Source: Desulfuromonadales bacterium (GTDB taxonomy: Bacteria > Desulfobacterota > Desulfuromonadia > Desulfuromonadales > BM103). From it: 15,442 nt of DNA. Under the pieces are notes generated by a model. The model made no database searches. It worked only from the letters and a program-made list of their open reading frames with translations, and was not told the DNA's origin. This document shows positions 2,381 to 12,004 of this stretch, one piece after another (position 1 is the stretch's first letter; each line of letters begins with the position of its first letter). The translations under genes and the position numbers were made by a program. Location of the stretch: NCBI GenBank assembly GCA_029859485.1, contig JAOUDB010000021.1, positions 1 through 15,442 of the forward strand, written 5' to 3'.

Positions 2381-2788
2381 ATGAATACCTGGTTCTACCT
2401 GAAACTCTACCTCCTGACGATCCCGGTCTTTTTTGCTGTTGACCTGCTCTGGCTGGGTGTGATTGCCAAGGGTCTTTACCAGAAGAACCTTGGCCATCTG
2501 CTCAGCCCCGATGTGAACTGGCCGGCAGCCTTTGCTTTCTATTTCATCTACATTGCGGGCATCATTCTTTTTGCGGTCAAGCCGGCCTTGGCCGAGCAGT
2601 CTTTGTTCAAAGCTCTTATCTGGGGTGCCCTGTTCGGTTTCTTTACCTACGCGACCTATGATCTGACGAATCTTGCGACGCTCAAAGATTGGCCGATCAA
2701 GATTGTTTTTATCGACATCGCCTGGGGAGTTGTTCTCTGCAGTCTGGTCGCTTCGATCAGCTACCAGATCGGTCGCTGGCTCAACTGA
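2381..2788 (+). CDS. DUF2177 family integral membrane protein
   Basis: A 135-residue, very hydrophobic protein with four predicted membrane helices (about 8-30, 47-65, 76-95 and 107-128). The N-terminal 'FFAVDLLWLGVIAKGLYQKNLGHLL' type region and the 'FGFFTYATYDLTNLATLKDWP' loop are hallmarks of DUF2177. The start ATG 2381 has GGGAG upstream. The function is unknown. DUF2177 genes commonly accompany the DUF1365/FAD-oxidoreductase/cyclopropane-synthase-like lipid cluster in proteobacteria. Here it converges on that cluster with only 3 bases between the stop codons, which supports a functional tie even though it is on the other strand. Confidence 0.88.
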   Translation: MNTWFYLKLYLLTIPVFFAVDLLWLGVIAKGLYQKNLGHLLSPDVNWPAAFAFYFIYIAGIILFAVKPALAEQSLFKALIWGALFGFFTYATYDLTNLATLKDWPIKIVFIDIAWGVVLCSLVASISYQIGRWLN

Positions 2789-2791
2789 GTG

Positions 2792-3352
2792 TTATGGCTT
2801 TCTGCCCAGGCGGTAGCGACCCTCTTCTTTATCGATTAAATCACTCAGCCGACAGAGCAACGGCGTGACCAGGGCCCAAACTATGGCCAGGGTCACGACG
2901 GTGAGAGTCGGGTTGTCACCGAAAGAGGCGGCACCCATTCTAATGCCGGCCCAATAAGCGAGTGGTCCGCCAAACAGCCCGAAGATTGCCGCGAGTAAGT
3001 AGCGTCCCGATAGCCAGTGCAAACCGTAGTGGAAGAGTGTAGCGAACTGCGCCCAGATCACAAACACCCAGAGAGGCAGCCACAATGGCCAGTCGGCATC
3101 GCGTGTGAAGGTAAACAAGCCGAAGCCTTGCTGAAGGGAGTCAACCAGGATTCCGAGCAGGCAGGCCGCGAACATCAACAACGCCTCGTTTTTACGGGAT
3201 ACGGCCAACAGCAGATGCAAACCGGCAAGCAACAAGCCAACCAGTGCACCGGAGGTCGGAAAGCCCCAGCCTGCGCCGAGCACGCAGCAGAACCAGCCGG
3301 CCTGGTAGATAGAGACATTGAGGAGTTTGGTTGCAAGGGGTTGCAGGGACAT
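2792..3352 (-). CDS. DUF2878 family integral membrane protein
   Basis: A 186-residue protein with about six hydrophobic segments covering most of its length, for example GALVGLLLAGLHLLLAV and LWLPLWVFVIWAQFATL. ATG 3352 is chosen because it overlaps the stop of the upstream gene by one base (TGATG), typical of translational coupling, while the open frame further upstream reads through the neighbouring gene. The family is known only as a conserved membrane protein of unknown role that travels with cyclopropane-synthase-like and DUF1365 genes. It is the last gene of the four-gene minus-strand operon. Its natural place would be the inner membrane, beside the lipid substrate of the fused methyltransferase. 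Confidence 0.85.
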   Translation of the reverse strand: MSLQPLATKLLNVSIYQAGWFCCVLGAGWGFPTSGALVGLLLAGLHLLLAVSRKNEALLMFAACLLGILVDSLQQGFGLFTFTRDADWPLWLPLWVFVIWAQFATLFHYGLHWLSGRYLLAAIFGLFGGPLAYWAGIRMGAASFGDNPTLTVVTLAIVWALVTPLLCRLSDLIDKEEGRYRLGRKP

Positions 3353-5337
3353 CAGTCGGTCCTTGAGGAGTGCTCCGGTTTGCTCAAAACCATTTGTGCC
3401 AGGTCGATGATGTTGGCGGCGAAGCCAGCCTGGCAGTAGGCGAAATAGTAGTCCCACTTACGCAGAAAGGCCTCGTCATAGCCAATCTCAAGGATTTCCT
3501 GCCGCCGGGCAAGCATGGTCTGGCGCCAGCGATCAAGGGTCTCCGCGTAATCCTGTCCATGTTGTTCGAGGTTGTCCAGATGCAGAGTCGATCCACTCGC
3601 CATGGCTTTAGTGAGTGCCCCGACAGAGGGGACATGCCCACCGGGGAAGATATGTTTGCGGATCCAGTCGGAACTGTAGCGATACGCGTTATATTTGCGA
3701 TCCGGTATGGTAATGACCTGGATCATGGCACGACCGCCGGTTTGCAGGGCTTTATCACAGGCCGCAAAAAAAGGTTTTAACCCGGCATGGCCGACAGCTT
3801 CGAGCATCTCGATCGAGACGATTTTTGAATACTGCCCTTCTATATGCCGGTAGTCGCAGAATTTGAGTTCAATCCGCTCCTCAAGGCCCGCGTCCAAAAC
3901 GCGCTGGCGGGCAAACTCGAGCTGCTCCCTGGATACGGTGATCCCCGTGACACGGCAGCCGGTCTGTTGCACGGCTTCGATGGCAAAACTGCCCCAGCCG
4001 CAGCCGATTTCGAGGACATGGTCGTCTGCTCCGATCCCGGTCTTGGCAATGATTGACTGAAGTTTGTTCCGCTGTGCCTGTTCCAAAGTTTCGTCCCCGT
4101 TTATAAACCGCGCGCACGAATAGGTCATGGTCTGGTCGAGGAAGGTGGCGAAGAACGCATTGCTCAGGTCGTAATGTTCCTTGATGTTGCGGGCGCTGCC
4201 CCTGATGGTGTTGGGTCGTTGCAGGTGCCGGAAGTAGTTGACCAGTCGACCCATGAGGGACGACATGATACTGCGGTCATCCATGACATCTTCGTTTTCG
4301 GCGAGCAGCGTCAACAGGCCCGGCAGGTCAGACGTGGTCCAGTCGCCATCGGTGTAGGCTTCACCGAAACCGATGTCGCCGGAGAGCATGACGCGGCGGA
4401 AGAACTGGAACTCCTTGACGGCCAGCTTTATCGACGGAGAGGCCCCTGCCTCACCGAAGGAATAATGCAAATCGTCGGGAGTCTTCAATTTAATTTCGCC
4501 CTGCGGTAGGCGTGACAAAAAGCCCGTGACCATTTTAAACCCGATCCGATCAATCAAGGTCGCTGGTACGGGTCGTATGGTCATGACGCTATCGGGAACC
4601 GGTTTCTGATACACGGGGAGCCTCCTCTGCCAATGAAGTTTGGCCGCCTGCCAGAGAATCCTGGGCATGGTCAGGCTGGCGCCGATGGGGTGGGCGATAA
4701 TGGTTCTTGCCAGGCTGTCTCTGGTCAAGGGCTTGGCCTGGCCATGAATCCGGGCAACCAGGGCCAGCTGGTCATTGACGTGATAGTTGAGCGTATTATC
4801 GATGGCTTGATCTGGCTCGGTCAGCCGAAATTCATAATGCCCCCGGACTGGGAAAAAGGGTGAGACGTGGAACTGCTTGTCAGCACGGAAGCGCAATCGG
4901 CCATCAACTTTTTCTGTTCCTTTCGCATCGAGCAGATACAGGTGCATCTCACCGAAGGTGTTACGCACCTGGGCAATTATGCAGACCAGAAGGCCATCCT
5001 TGTCGTGGCAGTAGAAAAAGCTGATCGGATTGAAGATGTAATTGAAAAATCGTGCCGCTGTTACCAGGATGACTTTACCCAGGGGAAAGGTCATGCCGGC
5101 ATGGGTGAGAACATCTTCAACTTTTTCGCGAATCGGAGCTTCACCAGGGGTCAGGTAGTCCTTGTCATGAACAGCAACCGGACGTCGCTGGTTATAACCA
5201 AACAACATGGTTTGCTTCGCAAGCTCGGGAAGGTCTTCCAGCTGGAAGGCGTAAAAATAAACCGGATAGCGGAAGCTGTGCTTGACCGGCGAAAGCCGAG
5301 CGTGCGTGACTTCGCCGAGATAAATTTTCGAATTCAT
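3352..5337 (-). CDS. DUF1365 :: cyclopropane-fatty-acid-synthase-like methyltransferase fusion
   Basis: A 661-residue protein joining two families usually encoded separately. Residues 1 to about 245 are DUF1365, with the opening IYLGEVTHARLSPVKHSFRY and the RFFNYIFNPISFFYC motif (96-110). From about 255 the sequence is a class of SAM-dependent cyclopropane-fatty-acyl-phospholipid synthase: HYDLSN (388-393), MTYSCARF (404-411), the SAM site VLEIGCGWGSFA (441-452), IEMLEAVGH (509-517) and FPGGHVPS (564-571). Compared with E. coli Cfa, Cys139, Glu239, Ile268 and Tyr317 align with C408, E513, I542 and Y597, but His266, one of the bicarbonate-site residues, aligns with Q540. The enzyme should methylate or methylenate the double bond of unsaturated phospholipid acyl chains at the inner membrane. 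A 4-base ATGA overlap joins it to the FAD oxidoreductase gene upstream. The changed histidine suggests a product other than a plain cyclopropane. Confidence 0.93.
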   Translation of the reverse strand: MNSKIYLGEVTHARLSPVKHSFRYPVYFYAFQLEDLPELAKQTMLFGYNQRRPVAVHDKDYLTPGEAPIREKVEDVLTHAGMTFPLGKVILVTAARFFNYIFNPISFFYCHDKDGLLVCIIAQVRNTFGEMHLYLLDAKGTEKVDGRLRFRADKQFHVSPFFPVRGHYEFRLTEPDQAIDNTLNYHVNDQLALVARIHGQAKPLTRDSLARTIIAHPIGASLTMPRILWQAAKLHWQRRLPVYQKPVPDSVMTIRPVPATLIDRIGFKMVTGFLSRLPQGEIKLKTPDDLHYSFGEAGASPSIKLAVKEFQFFRRVMLSGDIGFGEAYTDGDWTTSDLPGLLTLLAENEDVMDDRSIMSSLMGRLVNYFRHLQRPNTIRGSARNIKEHYDLSNAFFATFLDQTMTYSCARFINGDETLEQAQRNKLQSIIAKTGIGADDHVLEIGCGWGSFAIEAVQQTGCRVTGITVSREQLEFARQRVLDAGLEERIELKFCDYRHIEGQYSKIVSIEMLEAVGHAGLKPFFAACDKALQTGGRAMIQVITIPDRKYNAYRYSSDWIRKHIFPGGHVPSVGALTKAMASGSTLHLDNLEQHGQDYAETLDRWRQTMLARRQEILEIGYDEAFLRKWDYYFAYCQAGFAANIIDLAQMVLSKPEHSSRTD

Positions 5338-6623
5338 AACTCAAGTCCGAATGCTTTGGCCACGTCGACACCCGACCTGACGGCATCTTCATGAAAACCG
5401 TAGCCGAAATAACTGCCGCAGAAATAGGTGTTCTTACAACCATTGAGCTGCGGCAACTTCGCTTGTGTCGCCATCGAAGCGAAGCTGTAAAGCGGGTGAT
5501 GGTAAGCCATCTCGGCAATCACGGTGTCCGGTTTGAAAGCTTCGCCGCGATTGAGGGTGACGCAATAATCTTTCTGCGCCCTTAATCCCTGCAGGCGGTT
5601 CATGTAGTAGGTCACATAAACGGGGCGGTCCTCTTCTTCTCTCGCCTCGCGGGTAAAATTCCAGGCAGCCCAGGCGTGTTTGCGGATAGGCAAGATCGAT
5701 GAGTCCGTGTGCAAAACAGTTTGGTTGAGCTGGTATTGCCAGGGTGAAAGCAACTCTTGCTCGAGTTCAGTCGTATCTTGCAATAGGCGAAAGGCCTGAT
5801 CGGCGTGGGTGGCGATCACAACTTGATCAAAGGTTTGTGCCTCGTCATCTGAGAAAGTGAGCCGAACGTGCCCTTCTTCACGATGGACACCCCGCACCGC
5901 TGAATCGAGATGCAACCTCCCCTTGAAACCCTTGGCAAAAGCTTTAACGTAGGCATGGCTTCCGCCAACCACTGTTCGCCACAGGGGGCGATTGCGAAAA
6001 GAGAGCAAGCCATGGTTGCGGAAAAAGTGTAGAAACGGGCCCGCCGGGAATGCATGGATCTGCATCGTTGGTGTGGACCAGATTGCTGCGGCCATTGGCA
6101 TCAGGTAGTTATCGATCATAAAGGGTGAGTAACACCCTTTCTCCAGATAATCGCCGAGAGTGACCTGGGAAATGTCACCCTTGTCGAGATCTTCCTGAGC
6201 CTGTTTGTTGAATCGCACAATCTCCAGCAGGAAGCGGTAAAATTCTGGACTGACCAGGTTGCGCCGCTGGGCGAACAGGCCGTTGAAGTCCGTGCCGGCA
6301 TAAACCAGGCCGGTTTGTTGACATTGGAAACCAAAGGACATCTCCGAAACCCGTGCTTCGACTCCCATTTGGGCGAGGAATTTGCGAAACAGGGGGTAGG
6401 TGGCATCGTTGAGGACGATGAAACCGGTATCAACTGCCAGTCCGGCATCGGGGCCTTCTTTGATTTCGATGGTGTGCGTGTGCCCGCCAAGATAATCATT
6501 CTGTTCGAAGAGCGTCACGTCATGGCGCTTTTGCAACAGATGAGCCGCGACGATGCCGGCAACCCCACCACCGATCACGGCAATCTTTTGGCCTTGGGTC
6601 GGCTTATCGCGCGCTTCAGTCAT
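5334..6623 (-). CDS. FAD-dependent oxidoreductase (COG2907-type, amine-oxidase fold)
   Basis: A 429-residue flavoprotein. The N-terminal Rossmann motif is GGGVAG at 18-23, with Glu40 at the end of the second strand for the ribose, followed by the GGH motif (46-48) common in the amine oxidase/desaturase superfamily. The C-terminus has the second FAD segment with YFCGSYFGYGFHEDAVRSG. There is no signal peptide, so it is cytoplasmic or membrane-associated. Relatives sit beside cyclopropane-synthase-like methyltransferases in many proteobacteria; in Rhodobacter sphaeroides homologous genes belong to the singlet-oxygen regulon and are connected with furan fatty acid formation. An oxidation or desaturation of methylated acyl chains is therefore a reasonable inference, not shown by sequence. 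It overlaps the DUF1295 gene by 8 bases and the fusion gene by 4. Confidence 0.9.
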   Translation of the reverse strand: MTEARDKPTQGQKIAVIGGGVAGIVAAHLLQKRHDVTLFEQNDYLGGHTHTIEIKEGPDAGLAVDTGFIVLNDATYPLFRKFLAQMGVEARVSEMSFGFQCQQTGLVYAGTDFNGLFAQRRNLVSPEFYRFLLEIVRFNKQAQEDLDKGDISQVTLGDYLEKGCYSPFMIDNYLMPMAAAIWSTPTMQIHAFPAGPFLHFFRNHGLLSFRNRPLWRTVVGGSHAYVKAFAKGFKGRLHLDSAVRGVHREEGHVRLTFSDDEAQTFDQVVIATHADQAFRLLQDTTELEQELLSPWQYQLNQTVLHTDSSILPIRKHAWAAWNFTREAREEEDRPVYVTYYMNRLQGLRAQKDYCVTLNRGEAFKPDTVIAEMAYHHPLYSFASMATQAKLPQLNGCKNTYFCGSYFGYGFHEDAVRSGVDVAKAFGLEL

Positions 6624-7398
6624 TCAAACCTCCGGGCTTTGGAAACCAGGGAAAGAAAGCATTGGTTCGCTCTTTGTAAGCAGAAAATTCCGGATTGTTC
6701 TGATACTTGGCTTCAAGCATGGGGATTCCGGAAACTTTCAACAATAAAAAGTCGATGAGTAGCGGGCTGAGCACCGCCACCGCCCCATATGGAACCTTGA
6801 GGGCGATCAGGAGCAAACCCCACCAGAGCACGGCTTCACCAAAATAGTTCGGATGTCGCGTGTAGCGCCAGAGTCCGCTCTGGATGATTTTGCCGCGGTT
6901 CTCAGGCTTGCGCTTGAAACCCAAAAGCTGCCAATCGCCGATTGCCTCGAAGCCGAAGCCGAACAACCAGACCAGCAGTCCTGCACCATCGAAGGCCCCG
7001 AGCTTTTCCCCCGGGCTGTTGATGACCAGCAAGGCCGGCAGGGCGACCAGAAAGATCACCGTCCCCTGCAGCATGAAAATTTGCAGAAAGCTGCGCCAGA
7101 TGAAGGTGTCGCCCCACTCTTCGCGCCATTGGCGATAACGGAAATCCTCGCCCTCGCCCTGTTTGCGCAGAAAGATGTGACACGCGAGACGCAGCCCCCA
7201 GATTGTGATGAGGGAGACCACCAGCCACTGTCGGGCGTGACCATCGCCATAAACCAGAAAAGCCGAGCTGCAGATCAGAACGAAGGCAAGGCCGTAGGCC
7301 ACATCGACAATGCTGTTGTCCTTGAGCCAGAGGGCGAGCCCAAAAATCGTGGTCATATAGATCAGCAGCACAATAAGGCTGAAGAAGAAAACGTTCAT
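6616..7398 (-). CDS. DUF1295 / steroid 5-alpha-reductase-like membrane protein
   Basis: A 260-residue polytopic membrane protein with about six hydrophobic segments. The C-terminal half has the family signature GLWRYTRHPNYFGEAVLWWG (175-194), shared with steroid 5-alpha reductases and isoprenylcysteine methyltransferases, where it forms the cofactor pocket (NADPH in reductases). DUF1295 members are expected to reduce a double bond of a lipid-like substrate. It is the first gene of the minus-strand operon; its stop overlaps the FAD oxidoreductase start by 8 bases. The ribosome-binding site before ATG 7398 is weak. A candidate promoter is seen at 7459-7486. The substrate is unknown, but in this company a fatty acyl chain or its methylated product is likely. 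Confidence 0.9.
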   Translation of the reverse strand: MNVFFFSLIVLLIYMTTIFGLALWLKDNSIVDVAYGLAFVLICSSAFLVYGDGHARQWLVVSLITIWGLRLACHIFLRKQGEGEDFRYRQWREEWGDTFIWRSFLQIFMLQGTVIFLVALPALLVINSPGEKLGAFDGAGLLVWLFGFGFEAIGDWQLLGFKRKPENRGKIIQSGLWRYTRHPNYFGEAVLWWGLLLIALKVPYGAVAVLSPLLIDFLLLKVSGIPMLEAKYQNNPEFSAYKERTNAFFPWFPKPGGLND

Positions 7399-7486: not shown

Positions 7487-7591
7487 TGTTTCCAAACGTT
7501 TAACAGGAGAAATTAGCCGTCTGCGTGCAGTGGTGGGCAAGCATCTGTTATGATGGGTAGAACTGTAACAACAGGAGTGAAGGAGCGAGTC

Positions 7592-8167
7592 GTGCGGAAA
7601 ATTGCCTTATTTAAGAAACTTTGTCTGGTCGTGGTCATGCTTGTCGCGATGACCGATCTTGCTCAAGCGCTTGAGATCAAGGGTGTTCGTTTCAGTGACA
7701 CTCTGCTCGTCGATCAGACTGAGTTTAAGCTTAATGGAGCCGCGGTTTTGAAATGGGCGATGTTGTTCGATGTCTACGCCGGGGCCCTCTACCTTCCCAA
7801 GGGTGTTCCCGGGCAGAGTTGGTCGAACGACATCCCGAAAAGACTCGAGCTCTCCTATTTTCGTGAGATTGAGGGCAAAGGTTTTGCGGAGGCTTCAGAC
7901 AAGCTCCTGCAAGACAATCTCTTGCCAGCAGAGTATCAAGCACTGGAAAAACGGTTACAGACGTTTTATGGGTTCTTTCGGGATGTAAAACCTGGCGATC
8001 GCTACAGCATCAATTACCTTCCTGAAAAGGGCACAGAACTAAGGTTCAACGAAAACCCTTTGGGACATGTTCCGGGTGCCGATTTTGCGGCGGCATATTT
8101 CGGAATCTGGCTGGGTGACGAGCCGATCAGCAAAGAGTTCAGAGACCGTTTGCTGGATACGGATTAA
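7592..8167 (+). CDS. Exported chalcone-isomerase-like protein
   Basis: A 191-residue protein. GTG 7592 is preferred because AAGGAG (7580-7585) lies 6 bases upstream and the protein then begins directly with a signal peptide (RKIALFKK, hydrophobic core, cut likely after LAQA). An upstream ATG at 7550 would add 14 residues and place basic and polar sequence before it. The mature part matches the bacterial chalcone-isomerase-like family: LEIKGVRFSDTLLVD, LKWAMLFDVYAGALYLP, and a C-terminal PGADFAAAYFGIWLGDEPIS. Bacteria of this kind make no flavonoids; the fold also binds fatty acids, and such genes recur beside DUF1295/FAD/cyclopropane-synthase-like genes. A periplasmic lipid-binding role in the same system is inferred. 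It is divergent from the lipid operon and converges on the dikinase gene with 12 bases between. Confidence 0.87.
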   Translation: MRKIALFKKLCLVVVMLVAMTDLAQALEIKGVRFSDTLLVDQTEFKLNGAAVLKWAMLFDVYAGALYLPKGVPGQSWSNDIPKRLELSYFREIEGKGFAEASDKLLQDNLLPAEYQALEKRLQTFYGFFRDVKPGDRYSINYLPEKGTELRFNENPLGHVPGADFAAAYFGIWLGDEPISKEFRDRLLDTD

Positions 8168-8179
8168 GCGAAAAAAGAT

Positions 8180-10339
8180 TTAGCCTTTACCTCGGTCAAT
8201 CGTGACAATGCCGAGATAACCGTCGACGGTAAGTTGGTCTCCTGACTTGATGACTTTGGTTGCCTCCGGAATGCCTGTGACACAGGGGATTCCGTATTCA
8301 CGGGCAATGATCGCACCGTGGACCAGCATGCCGCCGCGGCGTTCGATGATCGCTGCGGCCAGCGGCGCCAGGAAGGTCATGTTTGGCTCGATGGCGTCGC
8401 AGACCAACACCTCCCCCGCTTTAAAATCAGTCAGGACGCTTGCATTATCCAGAACCCTTGCCGGACCTGAGTTGACCCCGGGCCCTGCGGGTTGACCAAC
8501 TAGTTGACGGGCGAGTTGCCAGGTGTCAGGGCTTTCGACGGGCTCTCGCTGCGATTCATACCTTGAAAAGACTTTTTTTTCTGTTGTCTCGGGCAAAATT
8601 TTATCAAGGCCTTCTGATACCCCGGAACCAATCCGTTCGCGAATTTCCTGCTCGGCAGCTGAAACACCGGCCCTGACCTTACCCAGATAGAGATTGTCAT
8701 TGTCTCGCAGGAGATAGCTGGCTTTGGCAACTGCCAGAATTCGGACTGCCATGCCGCGCTCTGTTTCAGGCACCTGGTCGAAAAAGGCTTGTTCCCTGTC
8801 AGCCTGCTTTAAACCCTCGCTTTTGTCGTCGCTATCCTGTTCGGCCAACTTCACCAGCCAGGAGCTCAGGTCCAGCTCTTTGGGCAAAACCCAGTTAATA
8901 CCGCTGTATTCGCGGTTAAACGCTTCGAGCATCAATTTCAGACGGCTCCCGTCCGGAAGACCACGGCCGTCTTTAAGCTCCTGCAACAGGCGATGGTCGT
9001 TTCGCAGCAGTTCTGCCATCTCGCGCAGCTGCTGGTTGCGTTTTACAGCGAGCAAATCATCTGAATGCAGCAGGTTGATGAACTCATGCGGGTCTTCAGG
9101 CTTAAGCAAATCATTGTAAAACTCACCAAACAGTCGTAAGCCGTGAGCCATCGGAATGCACTTCTCTTTATAGACACTCAGCCATTTGTCCAGAATTCGC
9201 CTGCGGTGGAGATACTCCCCGGCAAGTGTCCGGTTGCTAAGGTGAGACAGTTCGACAGCACTCATCTTCTCTGCGTCATGGTCCATTCCCGGCAAGACCT
9301 GCTGCTCAAGTTCCATGCGCAATGCTTCAAGGTTGTTGAGGCTGCGATGGAGGCTCAGGTACCAGGGCCGTTCATCACCCTCTTCAGTCTGCAAAGACGT
9401 TGTGATCGGGCGAGCCTGGAGAATATGCAGGTTTTTGTCAGAATAGGTCCATTCGATATCGAGGGCCAGGCCGAGGCTGGCTTCCAATTGACACCCTGCC
9501 TGGAACAGCTCCCGACAAAGGACGGGATCAAAGGGTGATTGCCCTCTTTGTTCCTCCCCGAGGGAAGACAACTCGGTGCCGTGTGTCGTAGGTCGCAGTG
9601 CGACGGTGTGAACAACTTCATGCTTTTCGGTCACGGCACCAGTGGCACGATTGAATTGCCAGCGGTCAGGCTCAATGGAGCCATCAACGAGAGCCTGGTT
9701 CAAACCCCAGACCGCCTCGGCCATCATGACGCTGCCGTCCTGGGGTGCTCGGGTGAAGAGGATCCCAGACACCTCTCCGACGACCATCTCCTGGAGGATT
9801 ACGGCCATACCACTCTTGCCAGAATCCAATCCAAGTTCGTGCCTATAGAGCAATGCGCCATCCGACCAGAGTGATGCCCAGACAATACGAATCGCTTCCA
9901 GAATGGCCTCTGCGCCCTGCAGCATAACGCGGCTTTCGTGCAGCCCCGCAAAAGACTGGCTTGCAGAATCTTCTCCGGGAGCCGTGGAGCGAACGGCCAC
10001 CGCGGACCAGTTGGCCGGACCTTCGCTCAAGTCCTTGAGCAGTTTCTCTTTCATCGCCTTAGGCCACGCGCGCGAGAGGAAGTGGTTGCGAATCCGCAGG
10101 GAGACATCCCAAAGCTCCTCCCAGCGCATCGCGCGAAAATCCTTGCGCTGCAACTCCATGGCAATGAACGTGTCGAGACCGGTTTCAACTAGGAAATCAT
10201 GATAGACACTCACCGGCAGGCAATATCCGGCCGGAACCATAAAGCCCTCTTGCTGCAAACGAGCCAGCATCATGGCTTTGCCACCAAAGGATTTGACGGC
10301 CTCCCGGCTGAGGTCTGTAAAGGGAATCAGCAAGTTCAT
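8180..10339 (-). CDS. PEP-synthase/rifampin-phosphotransferase-like dikinase
   Basis: A 719-residue protein. ATG 10339 overlaps the upstream stop as ATGA and gives a protein starting at the usual PPDK N-terminus (FTDL...SFGGKAMMLARL); a longer open frame adds 18 unlikely residues. Residues 1 to about 320 are the ATP-grasp nucleotide-binding domain, with VRSTAPGEDSASQSFAG (116-132) and a closing DIEWTY...QARPIT. A helical middle region of about 300 residues is little conserved. The C-terminus is the swivelling phosphohistidine domain with MLVHGAIIAREYGIP, catalytic His674. The PEP/pyruvate TIM barrel of true PEP synthase is absent. The order ATP domain, middle domain, His domain is that of rifampin phosphotransferases and of several uncharacterised dikinases, which pass phosphate from ATP to a small molecule. 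The acceptor is unknown, and antibiotic resistance should not be assumed. Confidence 0.88.
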   Translation of the reverse strand: MNLLIPFTDLSREAVKSFGGKAMMLARLQQEGFMVPAGYCLPVSVYHDFLVETGLDTFIAMELQRKDFRAMRWEELWDVSLRIRNHFLSRAWPKAMKEKLLKDLSEGPANWSAVAVRSTAPGEDSASQSFAGLHESRVMLQGAEAILEAIRIVWASLWSDGALLYRHELGLDSGKSGMAVILQEMVVGEVSGILFTRAPQDGSVMMAEAVWGLNQALVDGSIEPDRWQFNRATGAVTEKHEVVHTVALRPTTHGTELSSLGEEQRGQSPFDPVLCRELFQAGCQLEASLGLALDIEWTYSDKNLHILQARPITTSLQTEEGDERPWYLSLHRSLNNLEALRMELEQQVLPGMDHDAEKMSAVELSHLSNRTLAGEYLHRRRILDKWLSVYKEKCIPMAHGLRLFGEFYNDLLKPEDPHEFINLLHSDDLLAVKRNQQLREMAELLRNDHRLLQELKDGRGLPDGSRLKLMLEAFNREYSGINWVLPKELDLSSWLVKLAEQDSDDKSEGLKQADREQAFFDQVPETERGMAVRILAVAKASYLLRDNDNLYLGKVRAGVSAAEQEIRERIGSGVSEGLDKILPETTEKKVFSRYESQREPVESPDTWQLARQLVGQPAGPGVNSGPARVLDNASVLTDFKAGEVLVCDAIEPNMTFLAPLAAAIIERRGGMLVHGAIIAREYGIPCVTGIPEATKVIKSGDQLTVDGYLGIVTIDRGKG

Positions 10340-10785
10340 CGATTCATCCGGAATTCTGTGACGTTCTGGAAGCGCTGAACCAGGTGATAGCACTCGACTT
10401 CGATGCGGAATATGGCAGTGGTTGGTGACGAAACAAAGGTTTTCAGTTGGGGGTGTCTTGCCAGGTAGCTCTGCAAAACTTCAGCGTGCTCCGCAGCCGC
10501 GACTTCTTTCGCTGTGCCATAGGCTGTGACTGCCGCCGCCTCATAAAGGGCCGGAGCTTGATCGGCACGATTATCGACCAATAAGGCAACCTGGTCGTCG
10601 GCGGCAAGGTTGAGGTATTTGCGGGTTGCGCGCGTTGTGGCGAAGTAGATGAAGCATACGTCAGCCGTGGCCGCGAAAGCAACCAGGCTGGCATACGCGT
10701 GCCCCTTGTGGTTGGTGCCCAAAACGCCAAAGGCCTGTTCTTTGAGCAGCTTGATAACCAGACGCCATTCCTCTGTATCCGTCAT
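10336..10785 (-). CDS. Pyridoxamine 5'-phosphate oxidase (PPOX) family protein
   Basis: A 149-residue member of the FMN-binding split-barrel family. The sequence shows QAFGVLGTNHKGHAYASLVAFAATADVCFIYFATTRATRKYLNL, the typical run from the first strands through the flavin-contacting 'T..T.KY.NL' segment, then DDQVALLVDNR and a C-terminal FRIEVECYHLV strand. The ribosome-binding site is only a G-rich tract. Its stop overlaps the dikinase start by 4 bases (ATGA), so the two are translated together and probably serve one process. It lies 76 bases after the peroxiredoxin gene and may be in its operon. The ligand could be FMN, F420 or heme; the sequence does not decide. Confidence 0.85.
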   Translation of the reverse strand: MTDTEEWRLVIKLLKEQAFGVLGTNHKGHAYASLVAFAATADVCFIYFATTRATRKYLNLAADDQVALLVDNRADQAPALYEAAAVTAYGTAKEVAAAEHAEVLQSYLARHPQLKTFVSSPTTAIFRIEVECYHLVQRFQNVTEFRMNR

Positions 10786-10861: not shown

Positions 10862-11341
10862 CTAATAACTCTGTAAATTGATGACTTCCTGCAACAACTT
10901 TTCGTTGTCCGGCATGCCTTTGTGGACATAACGCACAATACCCTGCTGGTCAATCAGCGTGGTCACCCGACCGCTGCCGTAGATCTTGCTTATGCTGCCG
11001 TCATCAGGGATGAGGGGAAAGCTGAGACCGAGTTGATCAGAAAAGGCCTGGTGGGATTTCAGTGAGTCGGAACTGACGCCCAGAACCTGGACGTTCAACT
11101 CTTCAAAACGCGCAATGTCGTTTTGAAAAGCGTTCATTTCACTCGTTCAGCCCGAGCTGAAATCGGCATAGTAATATGCCAAAATCACCGGTCCTTTGAC
11201 CAATAGGTCACTCAGGGTAACTTCTCCCTGGGTGGACGATGCCGTAAAATCTGGTGCCGGAGAGTTGACCTCGAGGGCCGTCGCTTTTGATGCCAGCAAG
11301 GTTACTGCGATGACGATTACTGCACAAAGCATACGCTTCAT
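10862..11341 (-). CDS. Exported selenocysteine-containing peroxiredoxin (AhpC/TSA family)
   Basis: Read with the UGA at 11149-11147 as selenocysteine, this is one 159-residue protein. Residues 1-23 are a signal peptide (MKRMLCAV..., cut likely after ATA). Next come the thioredoxin-fold start SPAPDFTASSTQGEVTLSDL and strand VILAYYYADF. Then SSG-U65-TSEMNAF follows, where U65 sits exactly at the peroxidatic cysteine of BCP/PrxQ-type enzymes (..D.TPGCT.E..). The frame continues without shift into a typical peroxiredoxin C-terminal half: VLGVSSDSLKSHQAFSDQLGLSFPLIPDD...IYG....TTLIDQQGIVRYV. No cysteine follows U65, so it would be a 1-Sec enzyme. ATG 11341 has AAAGGAG 6 bases upstream. It should reduce peroxides in the periplasm with an outside thiol donor. 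A hairpin just after the UGA fits a bacterial SECIS. It would be split into two pieces by a standard gene caller. Confidence 0.9.
11099..11130 (-). promoter_or_regulatory. Putative bacterial SECIS element
   Basis: Starting 16 bases after the UGA codon, 12 bases (11130-11119) pair completely with 11110-11099, with one G-U pair, around the 8-base loop ACAUUGCG. The apical loop therefore begins 28 bases after the UGA, within the distance at which bacterial SelB-binding hairpins act. Fold and position are seen; SelB binding is inferred. Confidence 0.7.
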
Positions 11342-11361
11342 GGTTATCTCCTTTCCCAGCA

Positions 11362-11388
11362 ACTATAGCGTAAAAACATACGATGCAA
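11362..11388 (-). promoter_or_regulatory. Possible promoter of the peroxiredoxin gene
   Basis: On the minus strand TTGCAT (11388-11383) and TATAGT (11367-11362) are 15 bases apart, just upstream of the peroxiredoxin ribosome-binding site. The spacing is short and the resulting 5' leader would be only about 14 bases. Confidence 0.3.
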
Positions 11389-11500: not shown

Positions 11501-12004
11501 ATGGGAAGCAAGGGTCGAGAAATAGTCGGGTTGGATGTTGACGAACTGATCTCTGTGCTGCGTAAGGCCTACGCCGATGAATGGTTGGCTTATTATCAGT
11601 ATTGGGCCGGTGCAAAAGTGGCTAAAGGGCCGATGAAGGAAGCGGTGATTGCCGAACTTGAACTACACGCGACGGAGGAGCTGAATCATGCTCTGCTGGT
11701 GACCAACCGCATCATCCAGTTGGGCGGTGATCCTGTGACCGATCCGCGCGACTGGTTCAAGCTCACAAACTGTGCTTACGAACCGCCAGATGATCCCTTC
11801 GTGAAAACACTTCTGGTGCAGAATATCGCTGGTGAGCAGTGTGCCATCAGCGTTTACAAAGAACTGATGGACATGACCAAAGACAAGGATCCTGTCACTT
11901 ACAACATTGCCCTGCAGATTATAGAACAGGAGATAGAGCATGAAGAGGATTTGCAGGCGCTCCTTGAAGATTTTGAGTTGATGCTTTCGGCTTTCAAAGC
12001 TTAG
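11501..12004 (+). CDS. Ferritin-like protein of DPSL/thioferritin type
   Basis: A 167-residue four-helix protein with a strong AGGAGG site 4 bases before ATG 11501. A complete bacterioferritin-style di-iron site is visible: E27, E60xxH63, E112 and E144xxH147; the spacings E27-E60 (33) and E112-E144 (32) match bacterioferritin closely. The B-C connection is longer and carries two cysteines, C91 and C114 (GEQC), near the iron ligands. A cysteine pair in this position is the mark of Dps-like (DPSL, 'thioferritin') proteins of archaea and anaerobic bacteria, which form 12-subunit shells, oxidise ferrous iron with hydrogen peroxide and protect DNA. No heme-binding methionine of true bacterioferritin is obvious. 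It is divergent from the selenocysteine peroxiredoxin with 159 bases between, suggesting shared oxidative-stress control. Bacterioferritin is the alternative name. Confidence 0.87.
   Translation: MGSKGREIVGLDVDELISVLRKAYADEWLAYYQYWAGAKVAKGPMKEAVIAELELHATEELNHALLVTNRIIQLGGDPVTDPRDWFKLTNCAYEPPDDPFVKTLLVQNIAGEQCAISVYKELMDMTKDKDPVTYNIALQIIEQEIEHEEDLQALLEDFELMLSAFKA

Follow-up and report, generated by a model that had tools for sequence, protein, structure and literature searches.

A peroxiredoxin-like gene on a 15,442-nucleotide contig of a Desulfuromonadales bacterium (JAOUDB010000021.1, assembly GCA_029859485.1; hereafter the window) is divided under translation table 11 into two short open reading frames, raising the question of whether a stop mutation has broken the gene or whether its in-frame UGA encodes selenocysteine (Sec). 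The first-pass annotation, which gave no strand, had placed this UGA exactly on the peroxidatic cysteine of an AhpC/TSA peroxiredoxin and had seen coherent family sequence on either side. Both observations hold for the gene, which lies on the minus strand (Table 1): the read-through protein matched the whole Pfam AhpC-TSA profile (positions 1-124 of 124) at 95 bits, the cut-off being 26, and codon 65 aligned with the peroxidatic cysteine of solved peroxiredoxins (C in the query column in the two alignments shown, with Ser at this column in one of the two solved chains). The split gene is thus confirmed as a real single frame of 159 aa, and its sequence makes it close to certain, in our judgement, that the product is a selenoprotein of the peroxiredoxin superfamily.

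Table 1. Features of the Sec-peroxiredoxin gene and its neighbours (window coordinates).
Feature	Position	Strand	Remarks
Sec-peroxiredoxin CDS	10862..11341	minus	159 aa, U65, stop TAG
ATG start of Sec-peroxiredoxin	11341	minus	
Stop TAG of Sec-peroxiredoxin	10864-10862	minus	
In-frame UGA, codon 65	11147..11149	minus	peroxidatic position; putatively read as selenocysteine
Table 11 ORFs splitting the gene	11362..11147 and 11137..10862	minus	
SECIS-like hairpin	11098..11131	minus	13-bp stem, 8-nt loop; 15 bases between UGA and stem
Signal-peptide-like N-terminus (predicted)	11276..11341	minus	residues 1-22, A-T-A before L23; from hydropathy and sequence
AAAGGAG, ribosome-binding-like	11348..11354	minus	before the ATG
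PNPOx-like protein	10336..10785	minus	downstream same-strand neighbour, 76 bp past TAG
Ferritin/Dps-like protein	11501..12004	plus	divergent neighbour; Pfam Ferritin 92.6 bits; below NCBIfam Dps cut-offs
DUF2177 membrane protein	2381..2788	plus	lipid-type cluster
DUF2878 membrane protein	2792..3457	minus	lipid-type cluster
DUF1365 fused to cyclopropane synthetase domain (CMAS)	3352..5337	minus	
Flavin oxidoreductase (Amino_oxidase)	5334..6623	minus	gene of the linkage count
DUF1295 membrane protein	6616..7398	minus	lipid-type cluster
Chalcone-isomerase-like protein	7550..8167	plus	lipid-type cluster

A 42-row profile (A1), built from 43 loci minus the truncated L062, was run against one genome for each of 277 species of the class. 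The 58 best matches (at least 155.9 bits, in 44 genomes) all carried an in-frame TGA, and the next match below them scored 111.2 bits. At the exact peroxidatic site, read in 57 members and in the 58th, the codon was TGA in 58 of 58 and Cys in none. The family reaches beyond the class: a sample of 395 genomes from the phylum contained six from outside the class that matched at 190-216 bits, each with one in-frame TGA, the next match being at 114.5 bits. The genome of the window has four copies, on contigs C533 (the window), C539, C400 and C632. One copy in this genome, L077 (3708-4136), is without a signal-like N-terminus and has a single Cys 75 residues after the Sec, and another, L078 (1787-2269), is of the AIYTPAU type. 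No family match was found in G007, which is near G000 at selA-selB (92.7% identity), so the gene can be missing from a near relative. A cultivated relative, strain IMCC39146, carries a copy with 89% identity.

The selenocysteine machinery, which the first-pass annotation had proposed to look for as selA, selB, selD and tRNA-Sec, was found except for selD. Contig C333 carries selA (543 bits), tRNA-Sec (73.9 bits) and a selB truncated at the contig end (363.9 bits), and selD gave no match above the cut-off in the window assembly, which is 91.6% complete. Among 26 genomes searched, including this one, selD was present in 23, the others being the window genome itself, G004 (59% complete) and G006. 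Since selB directly precedes selD in 9 of 12 selD loci of relatives and is truncated here, selD is expected beyond the contig end. SelA was detected in 43 of the 44 family genomes (the exception being G004) as against 194 of 233 others (one-sided Fisher test, 0.0055, kinship ignored), and the congener G006, 99% complete, has neither SelA, nor selD over the cut-off, nor the family. SelD looks like a selenoprotein itself in this group, with one in-frame TGA in each of the 24 selD matches above the cut-off (L064-L075). In a check for contamination (6.2% for the assembly), the selA-selB contig C333 was 94.6% identical to G001 over 3.1 kb, and the window was 96.4% identical to the same relative over 14.1 kb.

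The window protein had 540 matches in the protein collection. Among the 120 best of these, 117 were 88-94 aa long and comprised just the half after the UGA, and annotation therefore hides the protein. Of the 120 proteins listed in a profile search, 15 were full length, and all 15 had Trp at the Sec site, which we take to be UGA translated with table 4. No Cys form of the clade was encountered in the 277 genomes of the class or among the protein matches listed. These 15 Trp-containing relatives would suit a reading of the UGA as tryptophan, through another genetic code or a suppressor, which we reject as exceedingly improbable given that TGA is the stop of 8 of the 15 window genes checked, that the UGA falls on the catalytic residue and that Sec machinery is present.

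That an ordinary peroxiredoxin was killed by a stop mutation at its active-site codon would fit the two short frames and the assembly's missing selD match. The first-pass annotation had named decay after the UGA in close relatives as the sign of such a loss, and we find the opposite: in comparisons of the window gene with ten relatives, dN/dS after the UGA was 0.08-0.21 in eight, 0.80 for the nearest pair at 1-2% divergence, and not estimable in one saturated comparison. Before the UGA, the values were 0.06-0.68 in nine comparisons, the tenth not being estimable. The region after the UGA is under purifying selection.

We also assessed the SECIS-like hairpin downstream of the UGA. Across 41 distinct sequences, 88.2% of cells at the hairpin were paired, compared with 83.0 in shuffles, and 32 cells were changed on both sides, compared with 10.5; sliding the partner along lowered the pairing to 25-59%. 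The number of pairs with change on both sides was not exceptional (58 of 500 shuffles), RNAalifold alone recovered 8 of the hairpin's pairs with little energy, and against dinucleotide shuffles the window hairpin reached only z -1.31. A sharper control is synonymous recoding, which keeps the protein: in 31 of 41 sequences the hairpin exceeded its recodings in stability (0.05 level; mean z -2.66), and none of 300 recodings of the window hairpin was as stable. At five other positions of these genes, mean z values ranged from -0.80 to +0.48. The hairpin was not significant in the remaining 10 of 41, including all four AIYTPAU sequences. The TGA that 58 of 58 relatives share at this codon, the strong constraint past it and a hairpin stability beyond that owed to coding lead us to reject loss by a stop mutation, to which we give hardly any credence.

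The predicted protein differs in several respects from known relatives. By profile, its best solved relative is the BCP homolog 3drn (114 bits), and its size is similar to that of PrxQ/BCP peroxiredoxins. T or S is retained three positions before the Sec in 57 of 57 members (T in 55, S in 2; S62 in the window protein). This T/SxxU motif, the PF00578 fold and a peroxidatic Sec are shared with the Sec-peroxiredoxins whose type is PrxU of Eubacterium acidaminophilum (PMC1794560, PMC2398784, PMC13188914), and a peroxiredoxin selenoprotein is listed for Geobacter metallireducens (PMC1794560). In contrast to the PxxxTxxU motif described for Sec-peroxiredoxins (PMC13188914), the position seven before the Sec holds Pro in only 8 of the 57 members, against Tyr in 34 (Tyr58 in the window protein) and Phe in 15. 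A signal-like N-terminus is a further difference. The window protein scored 48.4 bits against the PrxU model NF040737 (cut-off 270) and stayed below the NCBIfam cut-offs for PrxQ/BCP; indeed, no NCBIfam cut-off was reached by any of five members tested (the window protein, L076, L077, L078 and L161). Whereas the 2-Cys PrxQ/BCP type commonly has its resolving Cys at +5, this Cys is absent from 57 of 57 members. Peroxiredoxin-like UxxC selenoproteins likewise combine this kind of fold with Sec (PMC1088965) but carry UxxC, and 52 of the 57 members have no Cys anywhere after the Sec. Four of the five that do belong to a subfamily without a hydrophobic N-terminus. In the window protein the only Cys is C6, within the signal-peptide-like N-terminus, bearing out the initial observation of no other cysteine past U65.

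Among other Sec-containing frames, loci L170-L175 form a second group of Sec-peroxiredoxins with the motif FFPAA(F/Y)TP(V/I)UTGEMEGHQRNL. They score 88-102 bits against the family profile and have U at the site in 6 of 6 read; L170-L172 show a lipobox-like Cys close to the N-terminus, and L172 reached no NCBIfam cut-off. Just upstream of the Sec-peroxiredoxin in G020 (L057, L144, about 10377-10700) lies another frame that resembles a peroxiredoxin and has an in-frame UGA in its UxxC-type motif (HLGULPCRG); this too may be a selenoprotein.

Hydropathy points to a hydrophobic core (3.15), followed by A-T-A, at the N-terminus of the window protein; by this measure five of 43 members seem to be cytoplasmic, and in a few more the signal is weak. 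The full-length product would be about 17 kDa, and about 15 kDa once a signal peptide had been cleaved off. We infer export from this hydropathy and the A-T-A site, and Sec insertion in the cell, the substrate and the electron donor are likewise deduced. We consider it probable that the protein is a one-Sec peroxidase that is exported and depends on an outside thiol for its reduction. SelB and Sec-tRNA would read the UGA at codon 65 as selenocysteine, directed by the downstream hairpin, and the protein would be exported and fold as a PrxQ/BCP-like peroxiredoxin. Its selenolate would reduce a hydroperoxide and become selenenic acid. Lacking a resolving Cys of its own, the protein would need an outside thiol to restore the selenolate, supplied by a thioredoxin-like protein of the periplasm or by a small thiol compound. 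The likely task would be peroxide clearance outside the cytoplasm.

With Tyr in place of the usual active-site Pro, peroxidase activity is not certain, and the Tyr or Phe at this position in 49 of 57 members would also fit a selenoprotein that has the peroxiredoxin fold and is a thiol-disulfide or other redox protein instead. A sub-threshold match to the ResA model (49.8 bits, cut-off 170) points the same way. The window protein has no CxxC or UxxC motif, T/SxxU is kept throughout the family and R125 is invariant in its alignment, all of which speak against such a protein, and we regard it as unlikely. Regarding the donor for an exported one-Sec peroxidase, the window genome has four DsbD/CcdA-type proteins. 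One CcdA/DsbD-type membrane protein (L182, 3332-4420) is encoded between selA and tRNA-Sec, next to a gene whose product is small, thioredoxin-like and hydrophobic at its N-terminus. The bearing of this pair on the electron donor is only suggestive because G001 matches just the first 3.1 kb of the contig, C333.

What such a peroxidase might protect against can be approached through its gene neighbours. The window also carries what would be a gene cluster of the furan/cyclopropane-lipid type. DUF1365 is the domain of the Rhodobacter enzyme UfaO, which takes part in making furan fatty acids (PMC7380195). Singlet-oxygen responses in Rhodobacter include the genes of the UfaO operon and rpoE-chrR, and R. 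capsulatus has a gene for a glutathione peroxidase adjoining rpoE-chrR (PMC7074977). In Vibrio, a cyclopropane synthase and photolyases are induced by blue light (PMC5241685). The window also encodes a PEP-synthase-like protein of 737 aa (8180-10393; PPDK_N and mobile domains) that falls short of the NCBIfam cut-off for each of 25 models shown, and the divergent ferritin/Dps-like gene is kept in L021, L023 and L035.

The flavin oxidoreductase gene of the window cluster occurs once each in 19 of the 44 family genomes. Its distance to a Sec-peroxiredoxin is at most 11 kb in 11 of these 19 and at most 5 kb in 10 of the 11, both limits having been chosen after the data were seen. With G000, G001, G004, G005 and G014 counted as one, 7 of 15 were linked, compared with 0.16 under random placement. 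The linked members are spread over several branches, in differing arrangements, of a family tree that has open forks and a long-branch warning. The linkage may also reflect one ancient neighbourhood that was inherited.

A second setting involves an NmrA/DUF2867 gene that 40 of the 44 family genomes possess: in five it lies 83-305 bp upstream of a Sec-peroxiredoxin, and in a sixth it is 2.6 kb away. At L132 it is accompanied by genes for UvdE, a TudS-DUF1722 fusion and a lipocalin, and relatives of the UvdE gene were found near five loci of the NmrA/DUF2867 type. Fusions of the TudS-DUF1722 type (RudS) are reported in light-responsive operons (PMC11417400). The neighbours also include a photolyase-like protein below the Pfam cut-off (L136) and a B12-binding MerR regulator (L140).

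We searched up to 260 bases upstream of 57 members for a promoter of the RpoE2/ChrR type (TGATC-N16-20-CGTA) and found none; a looser pattern gave one match (L148), and the single match in the window lies inside another gene. This result speaks against regulation of the RpoE2 type for these 57 Sec-peroxiredoxins.

A role for the protein in photo-oxidative or lipid-peroxide stress is, on balance, a little short of an even bet. Slightly less credible, though a serious contender, is an exported Sec-peroxidase serving general peroxide defence, with the light- and lipid-related neighbours being incidental. General defence would agree with the divergent ferritin/Dps-like neighbour, with the lack of an RpoE2-type promoter, with the eight of 19 genomes in which the flavin gene is on another contig than the Sec-peroxiredoxin, and with its absence, at the threshold used, from 25 of the 44 family genomes, including all 17 of families f22 and f23. 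Linkage in 11 genomes across several branches and in differing arrangements, together with the second setting with UvdE and RudS genes, argues against it.

More tentatively still, the members may constitute an overlooked clade of exported one-Sec peroxiredoxins, extending beyond the class, with Sec in every member read and Tyr or Phe for Pro, that would act as a periplasmic or membrane-side lipid-hydroperoxide peroxidase of a light/singlet-oxygen module and draw electrons from a periplasmic thioredoxin relay. This proposed role likens the clade to an exported glutathione peroxidase of Shewanella, the periplasmic PgpD, whose regulon includes a photolyase, ybgA and cfa (PMC4336711). PgpD would be a functional analogue only, being of another enzyme family than the peroxiredoxins, and no RpoE2-type promoter was found upstream of the 57 Sec-peroxiredoxins. 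Among the titles and abstracts searched, which left most subscription journals outside, none described an exported one-Sec peroxiredoxin.

Sec-peroxiredoxins as such are already known; the present clade yielded no Cys form in the genomes searched, has a changed active-site motif and is mostly devoid of a resolving residue. The missing Cys forms, the replaced Pro and the gene linkage go beyond what the first-pass annotation had seen. To judge from its sequences, the clade probably works outside the cytoplasm, and it poses two testable questions: what maintains Sec in a clade with no observed Cys form, and how an exported peroxidase is reduced when its chain offers no second Cys. The Desulfuromonadia-type bacteria considered here are mostly known as anaerobes. 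If the gene linkage reflects function, it would show how such mostly anaerobic bacteria may meet light and oxygen.
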